Source of the DNA: Ruminococcus sp.
GTDB lineage: Bacteria; Bacillota; Clostridia; Oscillospirales; Acutalibacteraceae
Direction: 5' to 3'
DNA length: 64,000 bases
Assembly (NCBI GenBank): GCA_017403985.1
Contig: JAFRDE010000044.1
Coordinates: forward strand, 1-64,000
In this document: one piece after another, positions 36,282 through 50,937 of the stretch
Layout of the letters: each line of letters begins with the position of its first letter
Numbering within the stretch: position 1 is the first letter of the stretch
Program-made: the position numbers and the translations under genes
Notes under the pieces: generated by a model
Seen by the model: the letters and a program-made list of their open reading frames with translations, nothing else
What the model was told of the DNA's origin: nothing
The model's database searches: none

Positions 36282-36287
36282 GTAATA

Positions 36288-36306
36288 CTGTCCTTTCAAG
36301 GGACAC
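36288..36306. repeat. TGTCCC palindrome, copy 2
   Basis: CTGTCCTTTCAAGGGACAC, three bases 3' of the HicB-like gene stop. Confidence 0.8.
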
Positions 36307-36309
36307 TTA

Positions 36310-36708
36310 TTATTTCACTCCCAAATACTCCATCAAGGCAGTTTGAAAGATTTTGGAGCAGTTAACGCCGTCTTTATCCGCGAGATCGGCAAGCCACGCA
36401 GGGAGCGACAACGTCTTCTTCACAAAACGGTTGTTCAGCTTATCTCTGAACGTAGGCATAAATACGTCAATAACAGCAACCGCTTGATTCCTCTCACACT
36501 TCACCTGATCAAACGGCGTAGGCGCAGGCAGCTCTTCGCCGTCCTTTTCAAGTCCCCAGATATGAAGTCCGAGGGCTTCACGTGCATTTTCTATTGCCTC
36601 TTCGAGCGTGTCGGCACAAGGAAGGCATCCCGGAAGATCGGGAAACGAAATAGAAATGCCGTCATCTGCAATATCGAACAAGGCAACATAAGCGTATCTG
36701 TCTTTCAT
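36310..36708 (-). CDS. HicB-like antitoxin protein (no HicA partner seen)
   Basis: 132 residues from ATG 36708, with GGAGGATATT upstream. The N-terminal part is a HicB partial-RNase-H fold (DGISISFPDLPGCLPCADTLEEAIENAREAL); the C-terminal part is an RHH-like DNA-binding end (KKTLSLPAWLADLADKDGVNCSKIFQTAL). HicB normally neutralises the HicA mRNA interferase encoded next to it, but no small HicA gene is adjacent. It may be an orphan regulator. Confidence 0.85.
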   Translation of the reverse strand: MKDRYAYVALFDIADDGISISFPDLPGCLPCADTLEEAIENAREALGLHIWGLEKDGEELPAPTPFDQVKCERNQAVAVIDVFMPTFRDKLNNRFVKKTLSLPAWLADLADKDGVNCSKIFQTALMEYLGVK

Positions 36709-36735: not shown

Positions 36736-36760
36736 TAAGTGTCCCTCGGAGGGACACTTA
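36736..36760. repeat. TGTCCC palindrome, copy 3 (perfect)
   Basis: Twelve-base perfect arms TAAGTGTCCCTC / GAGGGACACTTA around a single base; it includes the relE stop codon. Confidence 0.9.
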
Positions 36761-37030
36761 TTTTTCATACACTTCTCTTCTGTGTCCAACGCTCAGAGCA
36801 AGGATAAGGAGCTGATCATCATGGATATGACATATCAATCTGTAATCTCCGATACGATATCTCCACTGTCCCTTTCTGTTTGCGGACAATGCTTTTCCGA
36901 TAACACGAGGATTCTCGCAGTTAATGAGATTTTTTTCGATCCATGACTTCAACATCTTCTGCGTATATCGGTCAAGCTTCTTAAACTCCTTATCAAATCG
37001 GGAAGTAGTTTCAACTGAGTACATTTTCAC
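36758..37030 (-). CDS. RelE/YafQ-type mRNA interferase toxin
   Basis: 90 residues from GTG 37030, which overlaps the antitoxin stop (GTGA) and has AAGGA nine bases upstream; ATG 37024 is an alternative. The sequence (TTSRFDKEFKKLDRYTQKML, GKALSANRKGQWRYRIGDYRLICHI) is a clear ParE/RelE fold with the basic residues of the active site. It would cleave mRNA at the ribosome unless bound by the antitoxin encoded before it. Confidence 0.88.
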   Translation of the reverse strand: MKMYSVETTSRFDKEFKKLDRYTQKMLKSWIEKNLINCENPRVIGKALSANRKGQWRYRIGDYRLICHIHDDQLLILALSVGHRREVYEK

Positions 37031-37316: not shown

Positions 37317-37904
37317 TTAATTCCCAAAATGAATACCCCCGATGTTATTTGTCATCGAGGGTACTTGATTAGGCAGCACCGGTTGCTGTGTGTTATTCTG
37401 TGTCGGAGCGTTTATATACTCCTGCGCCTTTTCCTCTAACAGAGTAAAATTGCAGCACCGTTTTTCGTGATTCGGGTATAGAGTCCCTTTTTTATGGTAA
37501 TGATAGAGATTTCTTGCTTTTTTGAGGATTATCTGCCGATTTTGTGATTGATTGCACCAAAACAGTTGGTTTTTCAATAGTTCTGAATATTCCCGATTAA
37601 TAATTGGAGCGTTTAAGTTAATCATCTTTGCAATTCCTTTGGGGACAGGGATCATATTATTTAGATTGATCACACCAAGCTTTCCCCCTTTTATCTTGAT
37701 AAAATCCACCGTTTCCTTCATTTTAATATGTTTCGGCTTCGGTGAGCTTAAAGGAGCCATATAATTGAATCCATCTATTTCAATGCCAACGCCGATGAAC
37801 GGACGTGTGATCTTATTAGATGAAGCAGCATATGGAACACGATTGTCAAACTGTTGCAGATAGCCGCAATAGTCCGGTTCAATTCTATATAGATTAAATC
37901 TCAT
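37317..37904 (-). CDS. Type III toxin endoribonuclease, ToxN/AbiQ family
   Basis: 195 residues. RPFIGVGIEIDGFNYMAPLSSPKPKH, FIKIKGGKLGVINLNNMIPVP and the C-terminal helices match the ToxN/AbiQ/CptN family, and the length is typical. It is an RNase that is held inactive by a repeat RNA, and such systems abort phage infection and stabilise mobile elements. It is preceded by a hairpin terminator and a promoter-driven noncoding stretch, exactly the toxI position. AGGAAGG lies before the ATG. Confidence 0.92.
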   Translation of the reverse strand: MRFNLYRIEPDYCGYLQQFDNRVPYAASSNKITRPFIGVGIEIDGFNYMAPLSSPKPKHIKMKETVDFIKIKGGKLGVINLNNMIPVPKGIAKMINLNAPIINREYSELLKNQLFWCNQSQNRQIILKKARNLYHYHKKGTLYPNHEKRCCNFTLLEEKAQEYINAPTQNNTQQPVLPNQVPSMTNNIGGIHFGN

Positions 37905-37925
37905 TTCTTTTTCCTTCCTAAACAG

Positions 37926-37955
37926 AAAAGGACTGAGCCGAAACTCAGTCCTTTT
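37926..37955 (-). terminator. Terminator between toxI RNA and toxN
   Basis: AAAAGGACTGAG/CTCAGTCCTTTT stem. A leaky terminator here is standard for type III systems, giving excess antitoxin RNA. Confidence 0.88.
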
Positions 37956-38029
37956 CTCCCATTTGACGGTTGGGCACCCTTCTTTTCATTAGCTCGCACT
38001 CGGTAGCGTACACCACAGAAATACTCTGT
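37956..38029 (-). ncRNA. Candidate ToxI-type antitoxin RNA
   Basis: Lies between a consensus promoter and the terminator before toxN. After a hairpin ACAGA/TCTGT come two degenerate units: one begins GGTGTACGCTACCG and runs to AATGAAAAG, the next begins GGTGCCCAACCG and runs to AATGGGAG. Units of about 30-36 bases fit toxI pseudoknot repeats. The repeats are weak, so only one may be functional. Confidence 0.65.
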
Positions 38030-38035
38030 ACTTTT

Positions 38036-38063
38036 ATTATATCCAATTATTCGGATTTGTCAA
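38036..38063 (-). promoter_or_regulatory. Promoter of the type III toxin-antitoxin unit
   Basis: Perfect TTGACA and TATAAT separated by 16 bp on the minus strand, just downstream of the ssb stop. Confidence 0.85.
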
Positions 38064-38068
38064 GTATT

Positions 38069-38473
38069 TTAAAAAGGCAAATCATCGTCCAAAGGCATAG
38101 CGGAATAATCCTCGGAATACATAGAAGGATCTTCACTCTCCCCCGACAGTTTTCTGCGCTCGCCGGTAAAGCTGACGTTTTCTGCAACAACTTCAATCAC
38201 CGTACGGGTCTGACCGTCCTTCGTCTGATAATTGCGGGACTGGAGCTGACCATCGACAGCGATCAATGATCCCTTTGCAAAATTACGACATACAAACTCC
38301 GCACAGCCGCGCCACACTACGACGTCAAAGAAATCTGTCTGACGTTCAGCGCCCGCTTTGACATAGCTTCGATCAACGGCAATCCGAAACGAAGTGACCG
38401 AAACACCGGAATTAGTTGTTTTGAGTTCGGGATCAGCCACAAGACGTCCCATTAAAACGATTCTATTAATCAT
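38069..38473 (-). CDS. ssb: Single-stranded DNA-binding protein
   Basis: 134 residues with an OB fold (MINRIVLMGRLVADPELKTT, TDFFDVVVWRGCAEFV, GSLIAVDGQLQSRNYQTKDG) and the acidic C-terminal tip DDDLPF used to recruit partners. It protects the transferred strand during conjugation and replication. It is translated from a start preceded by one of five similar leader repeats. Confidence 0.95.
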   Translation of the reverse strand: MINRIVLMGRLVADPELKTTNSGVSVTSFRIAVDRSYVKAGAERQTDFFDVVVWRGCAEFVCRNFAKGSLIAVDGQLQSRNYQTKDGQTRTVIEVVAENVSFTGERRKLSGESEDPSMYSEDYSAMPLDDDLPF

Positions 38474-38480
38474 AATATAA

Positions 38481-38511
38481 GCCTTTCTCCCCGTTCAGCC
38501 GTTAGGACAGC
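38481..38511 (-). promoter_or_regulatory. Leader repeat 1, before ssb
   Basis: Minus-strand AGCTGTCCTAACGGCT forms a 5-bp hairpin, followed by GAACGGGGAGAAAGG with the ribosome-binding site. Four other copies lie at 38911, 39249, 39509 and 40014. Confidence 0.8.
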
Positions 38512-38562
38512 TTTTTATCTGTAGTTTATATATTGTTTATTATCTGAGAAATCAGAATCATT

Positions 38563-38823
38563 TCATTTGCTATGTCTTTCCTCAGAACAAGTCATATTAT
38601 GATACTCTCCAAAAGCTATTCCATCTGCTCTGCAGCGGAGTATATCTCTCAATACCGAATCATCCTTTTGTATCCATGCTTCATATTCATCCTGCGTCAT
38701 ACCTAGATAATCCGAAAGTTTGAGATTTGATTGTCCATTATGCCACGCCTCAACATAGTCATCTATCTCCTCAATATCAGTCAGTCCGTACAAACAATTA
38801 TTAATAAAATTCATTTCATACAT
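38563..38823 (-). CDS. Small ICE protein of unknown function
   Basis: 86 residues from ATG 38823 (AAAGGGGGAG upstream). Acidic, with LSDYLGMTQDEYEAWIQKDDSVL as its most distinctive stretch, a pattern seen in small accessory proteins of Clostridia mobile elements. The 65 bases upstream (38836-38903) duplicate the 3' part of the 39579 gene, so a longer fused frame (start at 38874) exists but looks like a recombination artefact. Confidence 0.65.
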   Translation of the reverse strand: MYEMNFINNCLYGLTDIEEIDDYVEAWHNGQSNLKLSDYLGMTQDEYEAWIQKDDSVLRDILRCRADGIAFGEYHNMTCSEERHSK

Positions 38824-38835
38824 CAAGTCGTCTCC

Positions 38836-38903
38836 CCCTTTCCAGAACTTAGCATTTGCTTCTGCGTTTTTCATGGAGCCTTCTTTAGCTTGTTTCTCCC
38901 AGA
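38836..38903 (-). repeat. Partial duplication of the 39579 gene 3' end
   Basis: About 65 bases nearly identical to 39631-39697, coding (I)WEKQAKEGSMKNAEANAKFWK in both places. It has no start codon here. Confidence 0.85.
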
Positions 38904-38910
38904 TTGACTG

Positions 38911-38941
38911 TCCTTTCTCCCCGTCAAGCCGTTAGGACAGC
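38911..38941 (-). promoter_or_regulatory. Leader repeat 2
   Basis: Same AGCTG-TCCTAA-CGGCT hairpin followed by TGACGGGGAGAAAGGACAG. Here CTGTCCT can also pair with AGGACAG over the ribosome-binding site. Confidence 0.8.
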
Positions 38942-38951
38942 TATTATTAAA

Positions 38952-38972
38952 AATGTCCCTTTGAGGGACACT
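38952..38972. repeat. TGTCCC palindrome, copy 4
   Basis: AATGTCCCTTTGAGGGACACT, ending at the stop codon of the 38972 gene. Confidence 0.85.
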
Positions 38973-39241
38973 TAATTGTGTACACTATGCTTTACCCGAT
39001 CCATAACCTCGGCATACTTTGCGTCATTGAATCTATCGAGGTCACCAACGAGATACCCTGTAATACGTCTGATCCTTTCAATTCGAATAGAATCATATTC
39101 AAATTTTACGCTCACAAAATCACCGTCAAGTGTGATCTCAACCGCCTTAATATCCTTTTCAGGATTATTGCGCTTGATCTGATCGACATAAACATCGATC
39201 TCCTTTTGAGGAATAGATCCATTAGTACATTTGATCAACAT
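38972..39241 (-). CDS. Small protein resembling the C-terminal motif of anaerobic ribonucleotide reductase
   Basis: 89 residues. ERIRRITGYLVGDLDRFNDA and the following KYAEVMDRVKHS resemble the C-terminal signature of class III (NrdD) reductases (RITGYL...DRFN-xK-xE-xxDR-xxH). It is far too short to be a reductase and has no glycyl-radical site. Small stand-alone proteins of this kind occur on Clostridia mobile elements; the role is unknown. It is one of six small minus-strand genes separated by leader repeats. Confidence 0.7.
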   Translation of the reverse strand: MLIKCTNGSIPQKEIDVYVDQIKRNNPEKDIKAVEITLDGDFVSVKFEYDSIRIERIRRITGYLVGDLDRFNDAKYAEVMDRVKHSVHN

Positions 39242-39248
39242 TGTTACT

Positions 39249-39279
39249 TCCTTTCTCCCCGTTTCACCGTTAGGACAGC
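39249..39279 (-). promoter_or_regulatory. Leader repeat 3
   Basis: AGCTGTCCTAACGGTGAAAC then GGGGAGAAAGGA; the stem is weaker than in the other copies. It precedes the 38972 gene. Confidence 0.75.
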
Positions 39280-39504
39280 TTACATCAAATGCTCAACACG
39301 ATATTCTTGATCAGTTTTGGGGTCAGATAAAGTGAAGCAGAAAATAACATTGTCCTTGATAGGCGGTTTACTGCTTTCGCTCTGCACAACTCTCTTATCA
39401 TATAATTTGAGGTAAACCTCTTCTGCCTCGTAGATATTCTTGAAGCCACTGATTTTAATAAGGAGTTCACCATCTACATTCTTTAAGTTCAAATCATACA
39501 TCAT
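39280..39504 (-). CDS. Small ICE protein of unknown function
   Basis: 74 residues (MMYDLNLKNVDGELLIKISG...), mixed alpha/beta character, no recognised domain. Its start follows leader repeat 4, which supplies GAGAAAGGA. Confidence 0.65.
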   Translation of the reverse strand: MMYDLNLKNVDGELLIKISGFKNIYEAEEVYLKLYDKRVVQSESSKPPIKDNVIFCFTLSDPKTDQEYRVEHLM

Positions 39505-39508
39505 TGTT

Positions 39509-39540
39509 TCCTTTCTCCCCGTTCAGCCGGATAGGTCAGC
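39509..39540 (-). promoter_or_regulatory. Leader repeat 4
   Basis: AGCTG-ACCTATC-CGGCT hairpin followed by GAACGGGGAGAAAGGA, five bases before an ATG. Confidence 0.8.
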
Positions 39541-39550
39541 TTGATTTAAA

Positions 39551-39568
39551 ACGTCCCTTGAAGGGACA
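39551..39568. repeat. TGTCCC-type palindrome, copy 5
   Basis: ACGTCCCTTGAAGGGACA, 11 bases 3' of the stop of the 39579 gene. Confidence 0.8.
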
Positions 39569-39578
39569 ATATTTGCTA

Positions 39579-40007
39579 TTAGCTGTTTAGTATCTTTTGG
39601 GAAATCATCCACATTTCTTCTTTTATATCTTTCCAAAACTTTGCATTCGCTTCTGCGTTTTTCATTGAGCCTTCTTTAGCTTGTTTCTCCCAGATTTCTT
39701 GTGCTTCGTCGCAAAACTGCTTTGTAATTGCGACGTAGGTAGTAATAGCGTTCCACTGATCGTTGGTTAATGTTACGCTCCTTTCCTGCTTCTTCCATTC
39801 ATCAGTGGTCATTCGAACGGTCATATCGGAAGCGTTATACTGTTTGCAGTACCAATCCTTATGGCTGATGATCTTCTCACACTCTTGTCGCGTGAGATCT
39901 GTGGCAAACTGCTTGTCCGGTACAAAATCAAAACGATCACCTAATTTTCTGTAATAAGCTTTACGTCCGTCTTTTAACCCGTAAAGGTTGTGAATTACGA
40001 TATACAT
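39579..40007 (-). CDS. ICE protein of unknown function
   Basis: 142 residues (MYIVIHNLYGLKDGRKAYYRK...), with a segment RMTTDEWKKQERSVTLTNDQW suggestive of a small alpha/beta fold but no recognised family. Part of its 3' end is duplicated at 38836. Leader repeat 5 provides the ribosome-binding site. Confidence 0.7.
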   Translation of the reverse strand: MYIVIHNLYGLKDGRKAYYRKLGDRFDFVPDKQFATDLTRQECEKIISHKDWYCKQYNASDMTVRMTTDEWKKQERSVTLTNDQWNAITTYVAITKQFCDEAQEIWEKQAKEGSMKNAEANAKFWKDIKEEMWMISQKILNS

Positions 40008-40013
40008 TTTATG

Positions 40014-40044
40014 TCCTTTCTCCCCGTTCAGCCGATAGGTCAGC
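40014..40044 (-). promoter_or_regulatory. Leader repeat 5
   Basis: AGCTG-ACCTAT-CGGCT hairpin, then GAACGGGGAGAAAGGACAT before the 40007 start. Confidence 0.8.
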
Positions 40045-40051
40045 TTTGTGT

Positions 40052-40426
40052 TTAATTCAGTGAATCGACAAATTCCTTCAAAGTAGAGTAGAAGCTTTCA
40101 GAAACACATCCTGCAACGTAGTAATGGAGTTCACGAATCCACTGGTAGATGAATTCGTATTTGTCTTTGTAGTCATGCTCCCAATGCTCTTTGGTGAACG
40201 CTTTGAACTTTGAAAGGTTTTCTCTGATAAGCTTTGACCAATCACAGACAAGTGTACAACCATCGGTTTTCTGCTCGATCTCAACTTTCTTCAAAAGCCC
40301 CACAACAAAGAAGTCATAATCAGATTTAGGCTTATCAATCCAGTCGATCGTTACCGACCCATCAACGTCCGTGTCATAACAGTCATAACTACCTTTGTCA
40401 ATGGACAGCCAATCATATAGTTTCAT
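40052..40426 (-). CDS. ICE protein of unknown function, first gene of the small-gene operon
   Basis: 124 residues, acidic and aromatic-rich (DWIDKPKSDYDFFVVGLLKKV). No family recognised. Unlike the five genes after it, it has a plain AAGGAGG site and no leader repeat. A good promoter (40456-40484) lies upstream, so this is likely the start of the transcript that runs to ssb. Confidence 0.7.
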   Translation of the reverse strand: MKLYDWLSIDKGSYDCYDTDVDGSVTIDWIDKPKSDYDFFVVGLLKKVEIEQKTDGCTLVCDWSKLIRENLSKFKAFTKEHWEHDYKDKYEFIYQWIRELHYYVAGCVSESFYSTLKEFVDSLN

Positions 40427-47577: not shown

Positions 47578-50500
47578 TCATTCTTGTGAATAATCGTCGA
47601 TCGCTTGTCCCGCCTCAACCTTCAACTTCTTTTCTTGGCGGAGGATCTTCTTATCAGAGTGATGAATACGGCTTTGCGCCTTTGCAACAGTATCATTTTG
47701 AAACATTCTCCCTAAATGTGCTGCCGTGGTCGCTATAGACATCATAGCCAATGATTGCTCTTCTTGAAGCTCATTTACTTTATCCATTGATACGGAATAT
47801 CCCAATTCTTTGGCTTTAGTATAATACTCAATTGCTTTATCAATATCTCTTTCAACGCCCAGCCCATAATGATAGAATCTCCCTATCCTCAACGCTGTAT
47901 AGCCGTCATTTGGATCTTCATGATGATTATTTAGATACAATCGCAAAGAATCGGAAAAGTATTTTTGAGACAAGGATGGATTATAGTACGGACTTGAGCT
48001 GTCTCGATATATATAACCCAACTGATACATAGCGTCCGGACTACCAATGTCAGCCGCTTTAGAGTACCATTCTATGGATTTTTGTATATCAATATCTGTA
48101 CCAATGCCTTTTTGATACATATAACCAATACGATATGCGATAAACCCGTCTTCATGCTCAGAAAAATCCTTCTCAAAACCTTTTATCGCTTTTGCATAGT
48201 GGCTCTGCGCTTGTTCAGCATTCGATACTCCATATGTTTCAGACGAATAGATTTGCCCTAATTTATAGTCAGCATATGAAACATCACCTTCTGCTGCCTG
48301 TTTTAAATAAGAGACAGCTTTTTCTATATTTCCTTCCTCAAGATACATACTGCCTAATTTAAAACTGGCAAATGAATTTCCGTGATCAGACGATAGTTGA
48401 TAATACTTACGGGCAGTGTCCATATCCCGTAAAACGTATTGTCCTTTTTCATATATTTTCGCCAACTGATACGCTGCCGCTGAGTGATTATGAATTGCAG
48501 CTTGCTCCAACCAATAAATCGCTTTGTCCATGTTTATCCTGTCCCCGGTCAGACCATTCTGATACATTCTGGCAATTCTATACTCAGCATTTGCATTTGA
48601 GTTCTCTTTTTCTTGTCCAAGATAACCTTCCAATGCTTTTTGGTAATACTCCTGAGATAATTTTGTATTGTTTAAACTGTACTTATCAGACGAATACATA
48701 TATCCCAACTGATAATAAGCGTCAGGATTATCATGTAGAGAGGATTTTTTCAACCAGTCTATAGCTTTATCAACATCTACATCTGTTCCCTTACCCTCAA
48801 GATACAAACCCGCAATCCGCATTTCTGTAAAGCTATCTTGATACTTCTTCTCCTGATCTATCATTTGAATTAAAGAATCTTTGTATAGATCAAAGATTTC
48901 TTCGTTACCCTTTTGAAATATGTCCCGATTACTCTCATACAATCTTGCCAGTTCAAAACTTGCTGCTGCAACTTTGGATCTACATCTGAGTAGGCAATCT
49001 TCCGCTTTGATAAGATCAAGATCAACGCCTTCCCCTTTCATATACATCGACGCCATTCGGTAAAATCCGTAAGCATTCTCGGCTTTTTGATAATGGTGAA
49101 ATGCTTCTTTATAATCCTGCTCGACGCCCAGTCCATAATAGAATTGGTTGCCGATATAATAATTCGCAGTCTTATAACCGTTATGAGCAGCGAGCAAAAA
49201 AGAATACATGGAATTAGTGTAATTCTGAGGAATTCCTTCTCCCTTTAAATACATTTTTCCAATCAAAAATTCCTTATAAGCTTCTGATCGGCTGACGTCG
49301 TCGTAAACCGAAGAAGGATTAATCTGATCAATGTTGCCATGCTCTAATTTATCAAAATAATCAAAATTCTTAATACTCCATTTGAAAGAATAATAAGCTT
49401 GGCGACAATAGTCATTTCCAAGCTCTGTATTCTTTTCATAACCGGATAATCCATACAAATAGATTTGCCCTAATTTATAAGCCGATAATCCGTCATCGAG
49501 CTGATCGGCAGCTATTCCGTACCACATTACCGCCATATCAACATCTTCATAAGAGGGATCATATAAATAATAATCTGCTAACTTTCGTACAGAAAAAGCG
49601 TCTCTCAGGTTGATATCTTCCGCTTTAGACCTAATCATTTCAAAATCATCTATCTGTCGATTGTTTGTTTTGAATTGTTTACTGTCAGGATCAAAAGACT
49701 TAGTATAATAATCCATAGAGTTCTTTTCCGACAATTCAGACTGTATGCTGCTTATCTCACAACACTGACGAATAATCATATTTCGGAATAGGTTAAACTT
49801 TTCTCCCTGTTCATCAATTGGTACAGAGTTGGGATCTGTAATATAGATTTTTTCAATTGAAAACTGGTGTTCACACCATTGTTTATACAAATTTGAAAGA
49901 TGGTCATTATCATAAACTATGTGTCGAAGTATCTCATTTACTCGTTTCTTTAGATCAGGCTTTAAATATCCGTATTTAGTATTTGAGCCTCGAAGGGACG
50001 TTGAAAGATCCATCATTCTATTTATGATAAACTGCTTATCTTCGTCACTATAGCCGGACAAAGGGTTATCCAATAAGCTTTTTAGCTCATAATCCATACC
50101 GCTCTTAATTTCGTTAAATACGTCATCCTTAAGAACATATTCGTTATACATTTCATCGGCAAAAATATCATTTGCAAATGCAGATTTGCAACGAGTTATA
50201 GATTGATATTTTTTCTCAGAAAAGAAACCTTCATTAGGATCTTTTGACATTATAAAAAGGTGAATATGCGGATGATGGGATTCGTTGTGCATAGCCGCAT
50301 ACCACTCTAAATTTTCAATTTTTATATTATGTGCTTTTGCAAGCACATCGAGCTTAGACATCACCAAATCTCGCCACGGTTCAGCTGATTCATAGCCAAG
50401 CATATGTGCGTCTTCTCTTCTAAGAGAAACTATATGTGTCCAAATATTACCTTCGTGTGAAGATACACGATCTTTTATCAATTCGAGATCCACGGTCTCT

Positions 50501-50937
50501 TCTGATGAGAAGAGACCGTGAGACTGAATCATTTGTGCCCCGGGACGTTTTGCAGCATATTCTATAAGATTCGCTGTATACTCTTGACTGGCAGCTCCCG
50601 AGAAGCGTAACCGTTCTGAGAGATATGAAATATATTCGGAAGCTGTTCCTTTTGAAGAAAATTCTGTGTAGTCTCTGTATTCAAAGGATTCCTTATAGTC
50701 AATCCTCTGTTCAGAGAAGGCTTTCTCAAGCTCTCTTATTAAGCTTTCTTGCTTTTGTGTCGGAGGATCATTTAGGTGTTCATCGGCTATTCTCAAGGCT
50801 ACACCTTCGCGGCTTGCACAGTATTCAACCAAGTTAACAACCTCGGTGGCTGACTTAGCATACTTTGTTGACGATTCACCCGGTTTTGCTACATGGAAAT
50901 ATTGTGTATTCCATATAAAACGCGCTCCATTTGACAC
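47578..50937 (-). CDS. MobP/MobL-type relaxase fused to Sel1 repeats
   Basis: 1119 residues from GTG 50937 (GGAGAG upstream). The N-terminal relaxase domain (about 1-330) has GARFIWNTQYFHVAKPGE and the metal-binding three-His motif SHHPHIHLF (about 220-228); a nicking Tyr is not assigned. From about 440 to 1065 there are some fifteen Sel1-type repeats (YKLGQIYLYG, YRMASMYMKGEGVD, YQLGYMYSSD), giving a long alpha-solenoid. It cuts oriT and leads DNA into the recipient. The Sel1 arm is about half of the protein and probably binds proteins. Confidence 0.88.
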   Translation of the reverse strand: MSNGARFIWNTQYFHVAKPGESSTKYAKSATEVVNLVEYCASREGVALRIADEHLNDPPTQKQESLIRELEKAFSEQRIDYKESFEYRDYTEFSSKGTASEYISYLSERLRFSGAASQEYTANLIEYAAKRPGAQMIQSHGLFSSEETVDLELIKDRVSSHEGNIWTHIVSLRREDAHMLGYESAEPWRDLVMSKLDVLAKAHNIKIENLEWYAAMHNESHHPHIHLFIMSKDPNEGFFSEKKYQSITRCKSAFANDIFADEMYNEYVLKDDVFNEIKSGMDYELKSLLDNPLSGYSDEDKQFIINRMMDLSTSLRGSNTKYGYLKPDLKKRVNEILRHIVYDNDHLSNLYKQWCEHQFSIEKIYITDPNSVPIDEQGEKFNLFRNMIIRQCCEISSIQSELSEKNSMDYYTKSFDPDSKQFKTNNRQIDDFEMIRSKAEDINLRDAFSVRKLADYYLYDPSYEDVDMAVMWYGIAADQLDDGLSAYKLGQIYLYGLSGYEKNTELGNDYCRQAYYSFKWSIKNFDYFDKLEHGNIDQINPSSVYDDVSRSEAYKEFLIGKMYLKGEGIPQNYTNSMYSFLLAAHNGYKTANYYIGNQFYYGLGVEQDYKEAFHHYQKAENAYGFYRMASMYMKGEGVDLDLIKAEDCLLRCRSKVAAASFELARLYESNRDIFQKGNEEIFDLYKDSLIQMIDQEKKYQDSFTEMRIAGLYLEGKGTDVDVDKAIDWLKKSSLHDNPDAYYQLGYMYSSDKYSLNNTKLSQEYYQKALEGYLGQEKENSNANAEYRIARMYQNGLTGDRINMDKAIYWLEQAAIHNHSAAAYQLAKIYEKGQYVLRDMDTARKYYQLSSDHGNSFASFKLGSMYLEEGNIEKAVSYLKQAAEGDVSYADYKLGQIYSSETYGVSNAEQAQSHYAKAIKGFEKDFSEHEDGFIAYRIGYMYQKGIGTDIDIQKSIEWYSKAADIGSPDAMYQLGYIYRDSSSPYYNPSLSQKYFSDSLRLYLNNHHEDPNDGYTALRIGRFYHYGLGVERDIDKAIEYYTKAKELGYSVSMDKVNELQEEQSLAMMSIATTAAHLGRMFQNDTVAKAQSRIHHSDKKILRQEKKLKVEAGQAIDDYSQE

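Follow-up and report, generated by a model that had tools for sequence, protein, structure and literature searches.

A repeated leader element was analysed in a 64,000-nt stretch of DNA from a Ruminococcus sp. genome (contig JAFRDE010000044.1, positions 1 to 64,000; hereafter the window), in which five copies lie on the minus strand from 40045 to 38482, ahead of four small open reading frames (ORFs) and ssb, as a preliminary description of the window had stated. Comparison with related sequences indicates that the element is almost certainly a 24-nt H-type mRNA pseudoknot, a real RNA structure, and that it probably influences how translation of the following gene is initiated, a reading to which we would give a probability of about 0.6.

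The pseudoknot core has the consensus X1 X2 CUG N CCYA N CGG Y2 Y1 NN ACGGGG and is usually followed by a Shine-Dalgarno sequence (SD) and a start codon. Stem 1 contains five base pairs (1-16, 2-15, 3-14, U4-G13 and 5-12), of which the outermost is often lost, giving 4-5 bp, while stem 2 contains three pairs (7-24, 8-23 and 9-22). With a covarying stem 1 and a stem 2 formed between loop and tail, the predicted fold is that of the H-type pseudoknot class. The copies counted below as a set of 508 were selected for pairing, so direct pair counts in that set were not used for the stems, and scans and loci from patterns that left the tested bases free were used instead. For the X2-Y2 pair of stem 1, 370 loci from patterns leaving both bases free gave 354 Watson-Crick pairs (GC, CG, AT and TA), 5 G-U pairs and 11 unpaired copies, several of the latter resembling chance matches in coding sequence. 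An alignment of 101 sequences, in which the three inner pairs of stem 1 were fixed by the search patterns and hence unable to vary, gave a covariation score of 0.291, above all 500 shuffles and all slid versions (<=0.069); the double-change pair count (491/500) and the pair-type count (21/500) of the same alignment were not distinct from shuffles. In stem 2 a mismatch-tolerant scan found C7 and G24 to change jointly. When a scan barred C7 and G24 without requiring pairing (n = 96), bases 7 and 24 were GC in 85, TA in 8, AT in 2 and TC in 1, so that 95/96 paired, compared with a mean of 77.0 and a maximum of 85 in 20000 shuffles. The companion scan for the 8/23 pair gave nine matches, six of which pair, and the three with clear leader context (collected loci L584, twice, and L590) are A-T or G-C.

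The unpaired bases are conserved to a similar degree. The loop was NCCYAN in 195/195 distinct matches listed when the loop was left free, and in 34/34 of the loci new to that scan. With bases 10, 11 and 16-21 left free, the matches listed had A10 in 159/159, A19 in 157/159, C20 in 158/159 and G21 in 159/159 (29/29, 27/29, 29/29 and 29/29 in the loci new to that scan); these four bases are unpaired and nearly invariant, while positions 11, 16, 17 and 18 are variable. The U4-G13 pair is kept in 127/131, which speaks for RNA over single-stranded DNA. The preliminary description had proposed that mobile-element genes are preceded by a conserved RNA structure in which loop and tail form a pseudoknot, and the covariation in both stems strongly supports this. 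The remark that the stem is kept while the loop varies is reversed across relatives, where the CCYA of the loop is fixed and the outer stem pairs vary with compensation. Its proposed pairing of the loop with an AAGGA SD was rejected, as loop base 6 varies freely and the covariation joins bases 7-8 to 24-23; loop bases 7-9 pair with 22-24, the GGG of ACGGGG, and the SD overlaps the knot in only 25 of 437 cases.

In the window the leader has the general form AGCTG-NCCTAN-CGGCT-NN-ACGGGG-AGAAAGG, with small departures in two copies. The AGCTG-NCCTAN-CGGCT hairpin given in the preliminary description holds exactly for only three copies; at 39280 the sequence is CGGTG, so that one pair is G-U and the outer pair is lost, and at 39541 the loop is 7 bases long. 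The sequence ACGGGGAGAAAGG occurs exactly 5 times in the window, every time in this cluster. The full gapped pattern matched 3/5 window copies and had 0 matches in 100 dinucleotide shuffles, and chance is therefore no explanation for the window copies. The features of the cluster, in the order of transcription, are as follows.

40052..40426, minus strand: 124-aa ORF that opens the cluster and lacks the element; no Pfam match.
40022..40045, minus strand: pseudoknot copy 1 (AGCTGACCTATCGGCTGAACGGGG), leader 40045-40015; SD AGAAAGGA at 40021-40014, then ATG at 40007; 6 nt past the stop of the ORF at 40426-40052.
39579..40007, minus strand: ORF of 142 aa after copy 1; no Pfam match, BLAST cluster of 3.
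39517..39541, minus strand: pseudoknot copy 2 (AGCTGACCTATCCGGCTGAACGGGG), with the 7-base loop, leader 39541-39510; SD at 39516-39509, then ATG at 39504.
39280..39504, minus strand: ORF of 74 aa after copy 2; no Pfam match.
39257..39280, minus strand: pseudoknot copy 3 (AGCTGTCCTAACGGTGAAACGGGG), with an imperfect outer stem, leader 39280-39250; SD at 39256-39249, then ATG at 39241.
38972..39241, minus strand: ORF of 89 aa after copy 3; weak match of its C-terminus to anaerobic NrdD (Pfam NRDD, E=1.8e-06, 32 residues).
38919..38942, minus strand: pseudoknot copy 4 (AGCTGTCCTAACGGCTTGACGGGG), leader 38942-38912; SD at 38918-38911, then a duplicated fragment of the gene at 39579-40007.
38563..38874, minus strand: ORF of 103 aa after copy 4; start region derived by duplication from the 142-aa gene.
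38489..38512, minus strand: pseudoknot copy 5 (AGCTGTCCTAACGGCTGAACGGGG), leader 38512-38482; SD AGAAAGG at 38488-38482, then the ssb ATG at 38473.
38069..38473, minus strand: ssb after copy 5; Pfam SSB, E=2.8e-31.

The absence of the element from the first gene of the operon had been noted correctly, while ssb, which had been placed ahead of the small genes, is the fifth and last of the five genes in transcription order. The spacing from stop codon to knot is 6, 37, -1, 29 and 50 nt in the five copies in order, the first base of copy 3 being the final base of the upstream TAA. After copy 4 the next in-frame ATG is at 38874, 36 nt beyond the SD. The fragment behind this copy was placed there by a 78-nt duplication (38838-38915 and 39629-39706, 90% identical), a sign that genes have been shuffled at the leader. 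A sixth copy is found on another contig of the same genome (C21:9283-9313), with the ATG 14 nt after base 24. Genes for a type IV secretion system coupling protein, a MobL relaxase and a sortase lie near the window copies, which makes conjugative element a fair label.

The paired core was found in at least 508 distinct copies in the collected DNA (5.37 Mb) and in 0 copies in the same DNA reversed. Totals from the scans of viral contigs and species genomes are lower bounds and the samples follow database order; counts over collected loci mix loci from different patterns, and subset figures come from patterns leaving the tested base free. Among the exact-core matches (n = 388), 17 have no Watson-Crick X2-Y2 pair, and the set of 508 keeps only Watson-Crick or G-U at this position. 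The copies dropped in this way, such as L264, L266 and L320, resemble chance matches in coding sequence, and similar chance-looking copies are still within the 508 (L283, L312, L315, L342, L585 and L588). Searching for the hairpin only gave 107 distinct matches, 49 with ACGGGG 1-4 nt further on and most of the others chance-like.

The carriers comprise phages and conjugative elements of Clostridia, filamentous phages and two cyanobacterial phages. The 80 genome stretches viewed, out of at least 116, are mostly from Oscillospiraceae, Lachnospiraceae and other Clostridia. Named phage carriers include Ruminococcus phage RG-TP1, Dorea phage DO134P1 and Dulem virus 39; the filamentous carriers are two inoviruses, bajarodino 4 and 76, and the cyanobacterial phages are PA-SR01 and Pam2. 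Contigs labelled Smithella, Deltaproteobacteria, Omnitrophota and Paludibacteraceae also carry the knot, these being metagenome bins that are possibly mislabelled. The element had been described as belonging to conjugative elements; it is also common in phage contigs, viral collections being the most scanned. One copy is present in 362/423 loci. Among 29 viral records covered over their full length, 27 carry either one or two copies and a further one carries six; these counts are lower bounds, since the search model derives from the commoner stem-2 class. Per host genome the element is rare. A role in host core genes was rejected, the exact core being present in 1/249 phylum genomes (the window's own genome only) and a stricter pattern in 2/200 family genomes, own genome included.

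The placement of the knot relative to the surrounding genes is regular. A start codon with an open frame lies within 60 nt of the knot in 459/508 copies, and the ATG is 13-17 nt after base 24 in 340/459. The SD (match of at least 4 nt, n = 437) overlaps the knot in 25, is more than 10 nt away in 23 and begins at base 25 in 311, the last figure being inflated by several patterns that required AGAAAG there. In three sets from patterns not requiring it, AGAAAG directly follows base 24 in 17/39, 60/95 and 69/108, and AGAAAGG in 10/39, 55/95 and 55/108 compared with 234/5243 other ORF starts in the same loci. We take AGAAAGG to pair with the very last 3' bases of 16S rRNA in Firmicutes; this is unconfirmed in the window's own genome, where the pattern used had no match. 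On the other side, the upstream stop codon is 5-9 nt before the knot in 246/416 and less than 5 nt in 14/416, and ordinary stop-to-SD gaps in the collected loci are below 5 nt in 2276/3903. The class with other 7/24 pairs, collected with no context condition, has the stop 5-9 nt upstream in 60/95 and less than 5 nt upstream in 1. The ORF starts and gene boundaries that served as controls are mechanical, uncurated calls. An upstream ORF is present in 464/495 copies assessed, and 31/495 have no ORF of at least 40 codons ending within 150 nt upstream by this mechanical test. Seven of the 31 belong to a single recurrent class that follows a promoter-like sequence, and shorter ORFs are present in some of the remainder. 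At L591 the annotated upstream gene ends within the knot.

Two kinds of conserved sequence were seen behind the pseudoknot. At L392:8955-9188, L400, L421 and L423, four contigs on the minus strand, the knot is directly followed by a conserved non-coding stretch of about 200 nt that looks structured, and this stretch is also present in Blautia phage Montmirail (ON453898:15552-15758). A different conserved structured-looking leader follows the knot at L396, L401, L428, L433, L148 and L181; at L396 it is followed by a gene that clusters in BLAST with the one for the BRO-N protein of L144.

The genes behind the knot are mostly unrelated. BLAST sorts the 436 downstream ORFs into 346 clusters and the 409 upstream ORFs into 288. 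Proteins from 96 of the 346 downstream clusters were profiled, one from each, hand-picked from the first 150 listed, and had matches to 35 Pfam families and 80 PHROGs (25 of each viewed). The named downstream products include repressors, antirepressors, a DNA methylase, RecT, ParA, RadC, an ArdC N-terminal domain, a DarA C-terminal domain, a phi29-type SSB, SprT, BRO-N, gamma-glutamyl cyclotransferase and one portal-like protein, and many downstream proteins are without a name. Many of the nameable genes share a theme of early, accessory, anti-restriction or DNA-handling functions. The commonest genes around the knot, seen at loci such as L412, L236 and L022, are downstream a gamma-glutamyl cyclotransferase-like gene (15/436; Pfam GGACT on L022) and upstream a presumably amidoligase-like gene (31/409).

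The preliminary description had suggested one shared switch for the cluster, possibly thrown by a trans-acting factor. Such a switch finds no support in the one or two copies of most viral records, nor in the unrelated genes behind the knot. No protein family was common to seven carriers by BLAST (E 1e-3, ATG ORFs of at least 35 aa), a comparison that remote homologues could escape and in which the window covers only part of its element; the widest cluster, a helix-turn-helix protein, was present in 5/7. A trans-acting protein encoded by the carriers was rejected on this result. A link to the neighbouring ToxN system was rejected as well, since tblastn found ToxN-like sequence only in the window's own DNA among the collected loci; on the same ground, the RNA repeats beside toxN that characterise a type III antitoxin RNA (ToxI) are not a feature of the element.

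The knot lies clear of the terminating ribosome and near an unusual SD, the genes behind it are unrelated and no partner is common to the carriers, a combination that is best read as ribosome loading. The 30S subunit would then be the partner and initiation the step affected, and the effect could be boosting, insulating or repressing. A more specific version, in which a self-contained pseudoknot-plus-SD module governs ribosome loading on mobile genes, is suggested by the sequence comparisons with somewhat less than even confidence. Knot and SD would move as one module, the SD in Clostridia often beginning at base 25, and the knot would fold in the gap after the stop codon or in a 5' leader, beyond the reach of the terminating ribosome. 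Stem 2 would sit directly against the helix of SD and anti-SD, the 30S subunit would meet a preformed landing module and not chance upstream mRNA, and newly acquired mobile genes would gain a translation start that is functional in many hosts.

Several observations weigh against this account of the knot. The figure for SDs beginning at base 25 is inflated, as stated above, and in the cyanobacterial phage PA-SR01 the SD is about 22 nt past the knot, so that not every knot can stack directly on the SD helix. In a few loci a nearby start codon is replaced by something else: the knot lies before structured-looking non-coding stretches (L392, L400, L421, L423, L401, L428 and L396), the phage contig L443 has the knot at 2308-2331 followed by tRNA-Gln (anticodon TTG) at 2401-2475 on the plus strand, and at L198 the knot precedes a promoter-like sequence. 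A pure translation role leaves these cases unexplained. The invariant unpaired bases would be just as fitting for a binding pocket. As regards the fold, L520 has a clear leader and a mismatched 7/24 pair, and 3/8 of the T-A cases at 7/24 (L503, L519 and L533) lack leader context and are possibly chance matches.

Small pseudoknots can also act as switches, as in the preQ1-I and SAM-II riboswitches and the S15/rpsO leader, and the element could bind a small molecule or a host protein that sets whether the adjacent SD is open. This is possible but rather unlikely. The near-invariance of the unpaired A10, A19, C20 and G21 and the closeness of knot and SD, which often abut and at times overlap, would be in keeping with a binding site, and the lack of a partner common to the seven carriers is as expected for a metabolite or a universal host factor. 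However, the genes behind the knot have no evident common pathway, the knot usually lies between two genes, unlike most riboswitches, the SD of PA-SR01 is distant, and no Rfam riboswitch matched the element in the window and loci scanned. A broader form, in which a 24-nt aptamer, among the smallest in nature, is shared by phages and conjugative elements of several bacterial phyla, senses one common intracellular signal of host state or defence and thereby gates early anti-restriction, DNA-handling and takeover genes, appears unlikely. About equally improbable is a barrier to 5'-to-3' decay of the RNase J type, comparable in role to viral exonuclease-resistant RNAs, that would preserve the RNA behind the knot once the upstream part is degraded. 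Such a barrier would account for the copies before non-coding stretches and the tRNA, for the 5'-leader copies without a clear upstream ORF (the 31/495) and for the need to sit outside translated sequence, but it gives no reason for the unusual SD immediately after a knot that is itself short. The absence of a match in E. coli (one 33-nt blastn query) adds weak support at most.

A spacing of 5-9 nt is typical of ribosome-stalling pseudoknots, and the stop codon at this distance in 246/416 would suit a termination-reinitiation or coupling device acting on a ribosome parked at the upstream stop. We consider such a device distinctly improbable, given the 31 copies that lack an upstream ORF by the test above, seven of which form the promoter-like class, and the scattered stop spacing in the window. 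The reading frames of the stop and the following ATG are almost randomly distributed (67/78/81), and only 28/226 would allow a read-through fusion, which also speaks against coupling; a read-through product seems unintended, and readthrough or frameshifting past the upstream stop was rejected as unsupported. Least probable, and very unlikely, is a DNA repeat that serves only as a boundary for gene-cassette exchange and has no RNA function. Near-identical leaders with different genes behind them, the duplicated gene fragment after copy 4 and the abrupt change of sequence right after ACGGGG in some loci would all be expected of such a boundary. The compensatory changes in both stems, the U-G pair and the fixed orientation and SD/ATG spacing nevertheless call for a folded RNA, and given the covariation in stem 2 the DNA-only explanation is already hard to hold.

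When the element was compared with known RNAs, no Rfam 15 family matched at the element with gathering cut-offs in the window and 15 loci, nor did any match there with permissive E-values in the window cluster, L189, L321 and L329. It resembles a preQ1-I type riboswitch as a tiny H-type pseudoknot beside the SD with conserved loop bases, but differs in the absence of a riboswitch match, in genes unrelated to queuosine and in its mostly intergenic position. The PeSL cassettes of T4-type phages are likewise repeated stem-loop regulatory elements that mark gene-shuffling boundaries; PeSL carries a promoter, whereas the module described here carries a pseudoknot and SD and is common to unrelated phages and conjugative elements. 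The rpsO/S15 leader knots are mRNA pseudoknots acting on 30S loading, but these and the tisB standby knot each serve one gene family, while the knot here is found with hundreds of unrelated mobile genes. The tisB pseudoknot is likewise reported to act on 30S loading (PMC7708055).

By context the nearest described motif is STAXI (RF01728), which is described as a pseudoknot RNA of unknown function near single-strand binding protein, antirestriction and integrase genes, with two, usually three, repeated pseudoknots and frequent UUCG loops (PMC2864571). The likeness lies in a pseudoknot near ssb and antirestriction genes. In contrast to STAXI, whose Rfam model has 153 positions, the element consists of a single 24-nt knot at each gene boundary, with NCCYAN as its loop and in most cases an SD attached. 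The tandem arrangement of STAXI is absent, as most loci are single-copy and the five window copies are separated by genes, and none of the loops listed was UUCG. The STAXI covariance model had no match at the element in the window, L189, L321, L329 or the window's own genome, and the four sub-threshold matches in that genome are all on other contigs. Searches of mostly open literature on the motif letters, phage RNA motifs and pseudoknots, and STAXI gave no description of the motif, nor did the passages covered of a large human-microbiome RNA screen (PMC8040213). We regard the element as an apparently unlisted RNA family of a known kind, the cis-acting mRNA pseudoknots.

The covariation is unusually clean. 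The element has at least 508 copies in double-stranded DNA phages, filamentous phages and conjugative elements, cyanobacterial phages included, which points to a portable, previously unlisted element for control of gene expression. As many of the nameable genes are early, DNA-handling or anti-restriction genes, the knot gives a starting point in the search for new counter-defence genes. If the knot alone loads ribosomes it would be a ready-made, host-independent translation module, and if it is a switch it would reveal what mobile elements sense.

Further features were seen in the window. A second repeat family consists of intergenic GTCCCTT-N-AAGGGAC hairpins at 36286-36312, 36737-36763, 38951-38977 and 39549-39575, two of which are immediately upstream of pseudoknot copies 4 and 2. 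A ToxN-type toxin gene is located at 37317-38068 on the minus strand (Pfam ToxN_toxin, E=6.7e-45), preceded by a promoter-like sequence and a short stretch with a terminator-like hairpin at its end; the locus looks like a type III toxin-antitoxin system, with an RNA antitoxin that has no convincing Rfam match. The MobL relaxase gene is found at 47578-50937 on the minus strand and encodes Sel1 repeats fused to the relaxase.

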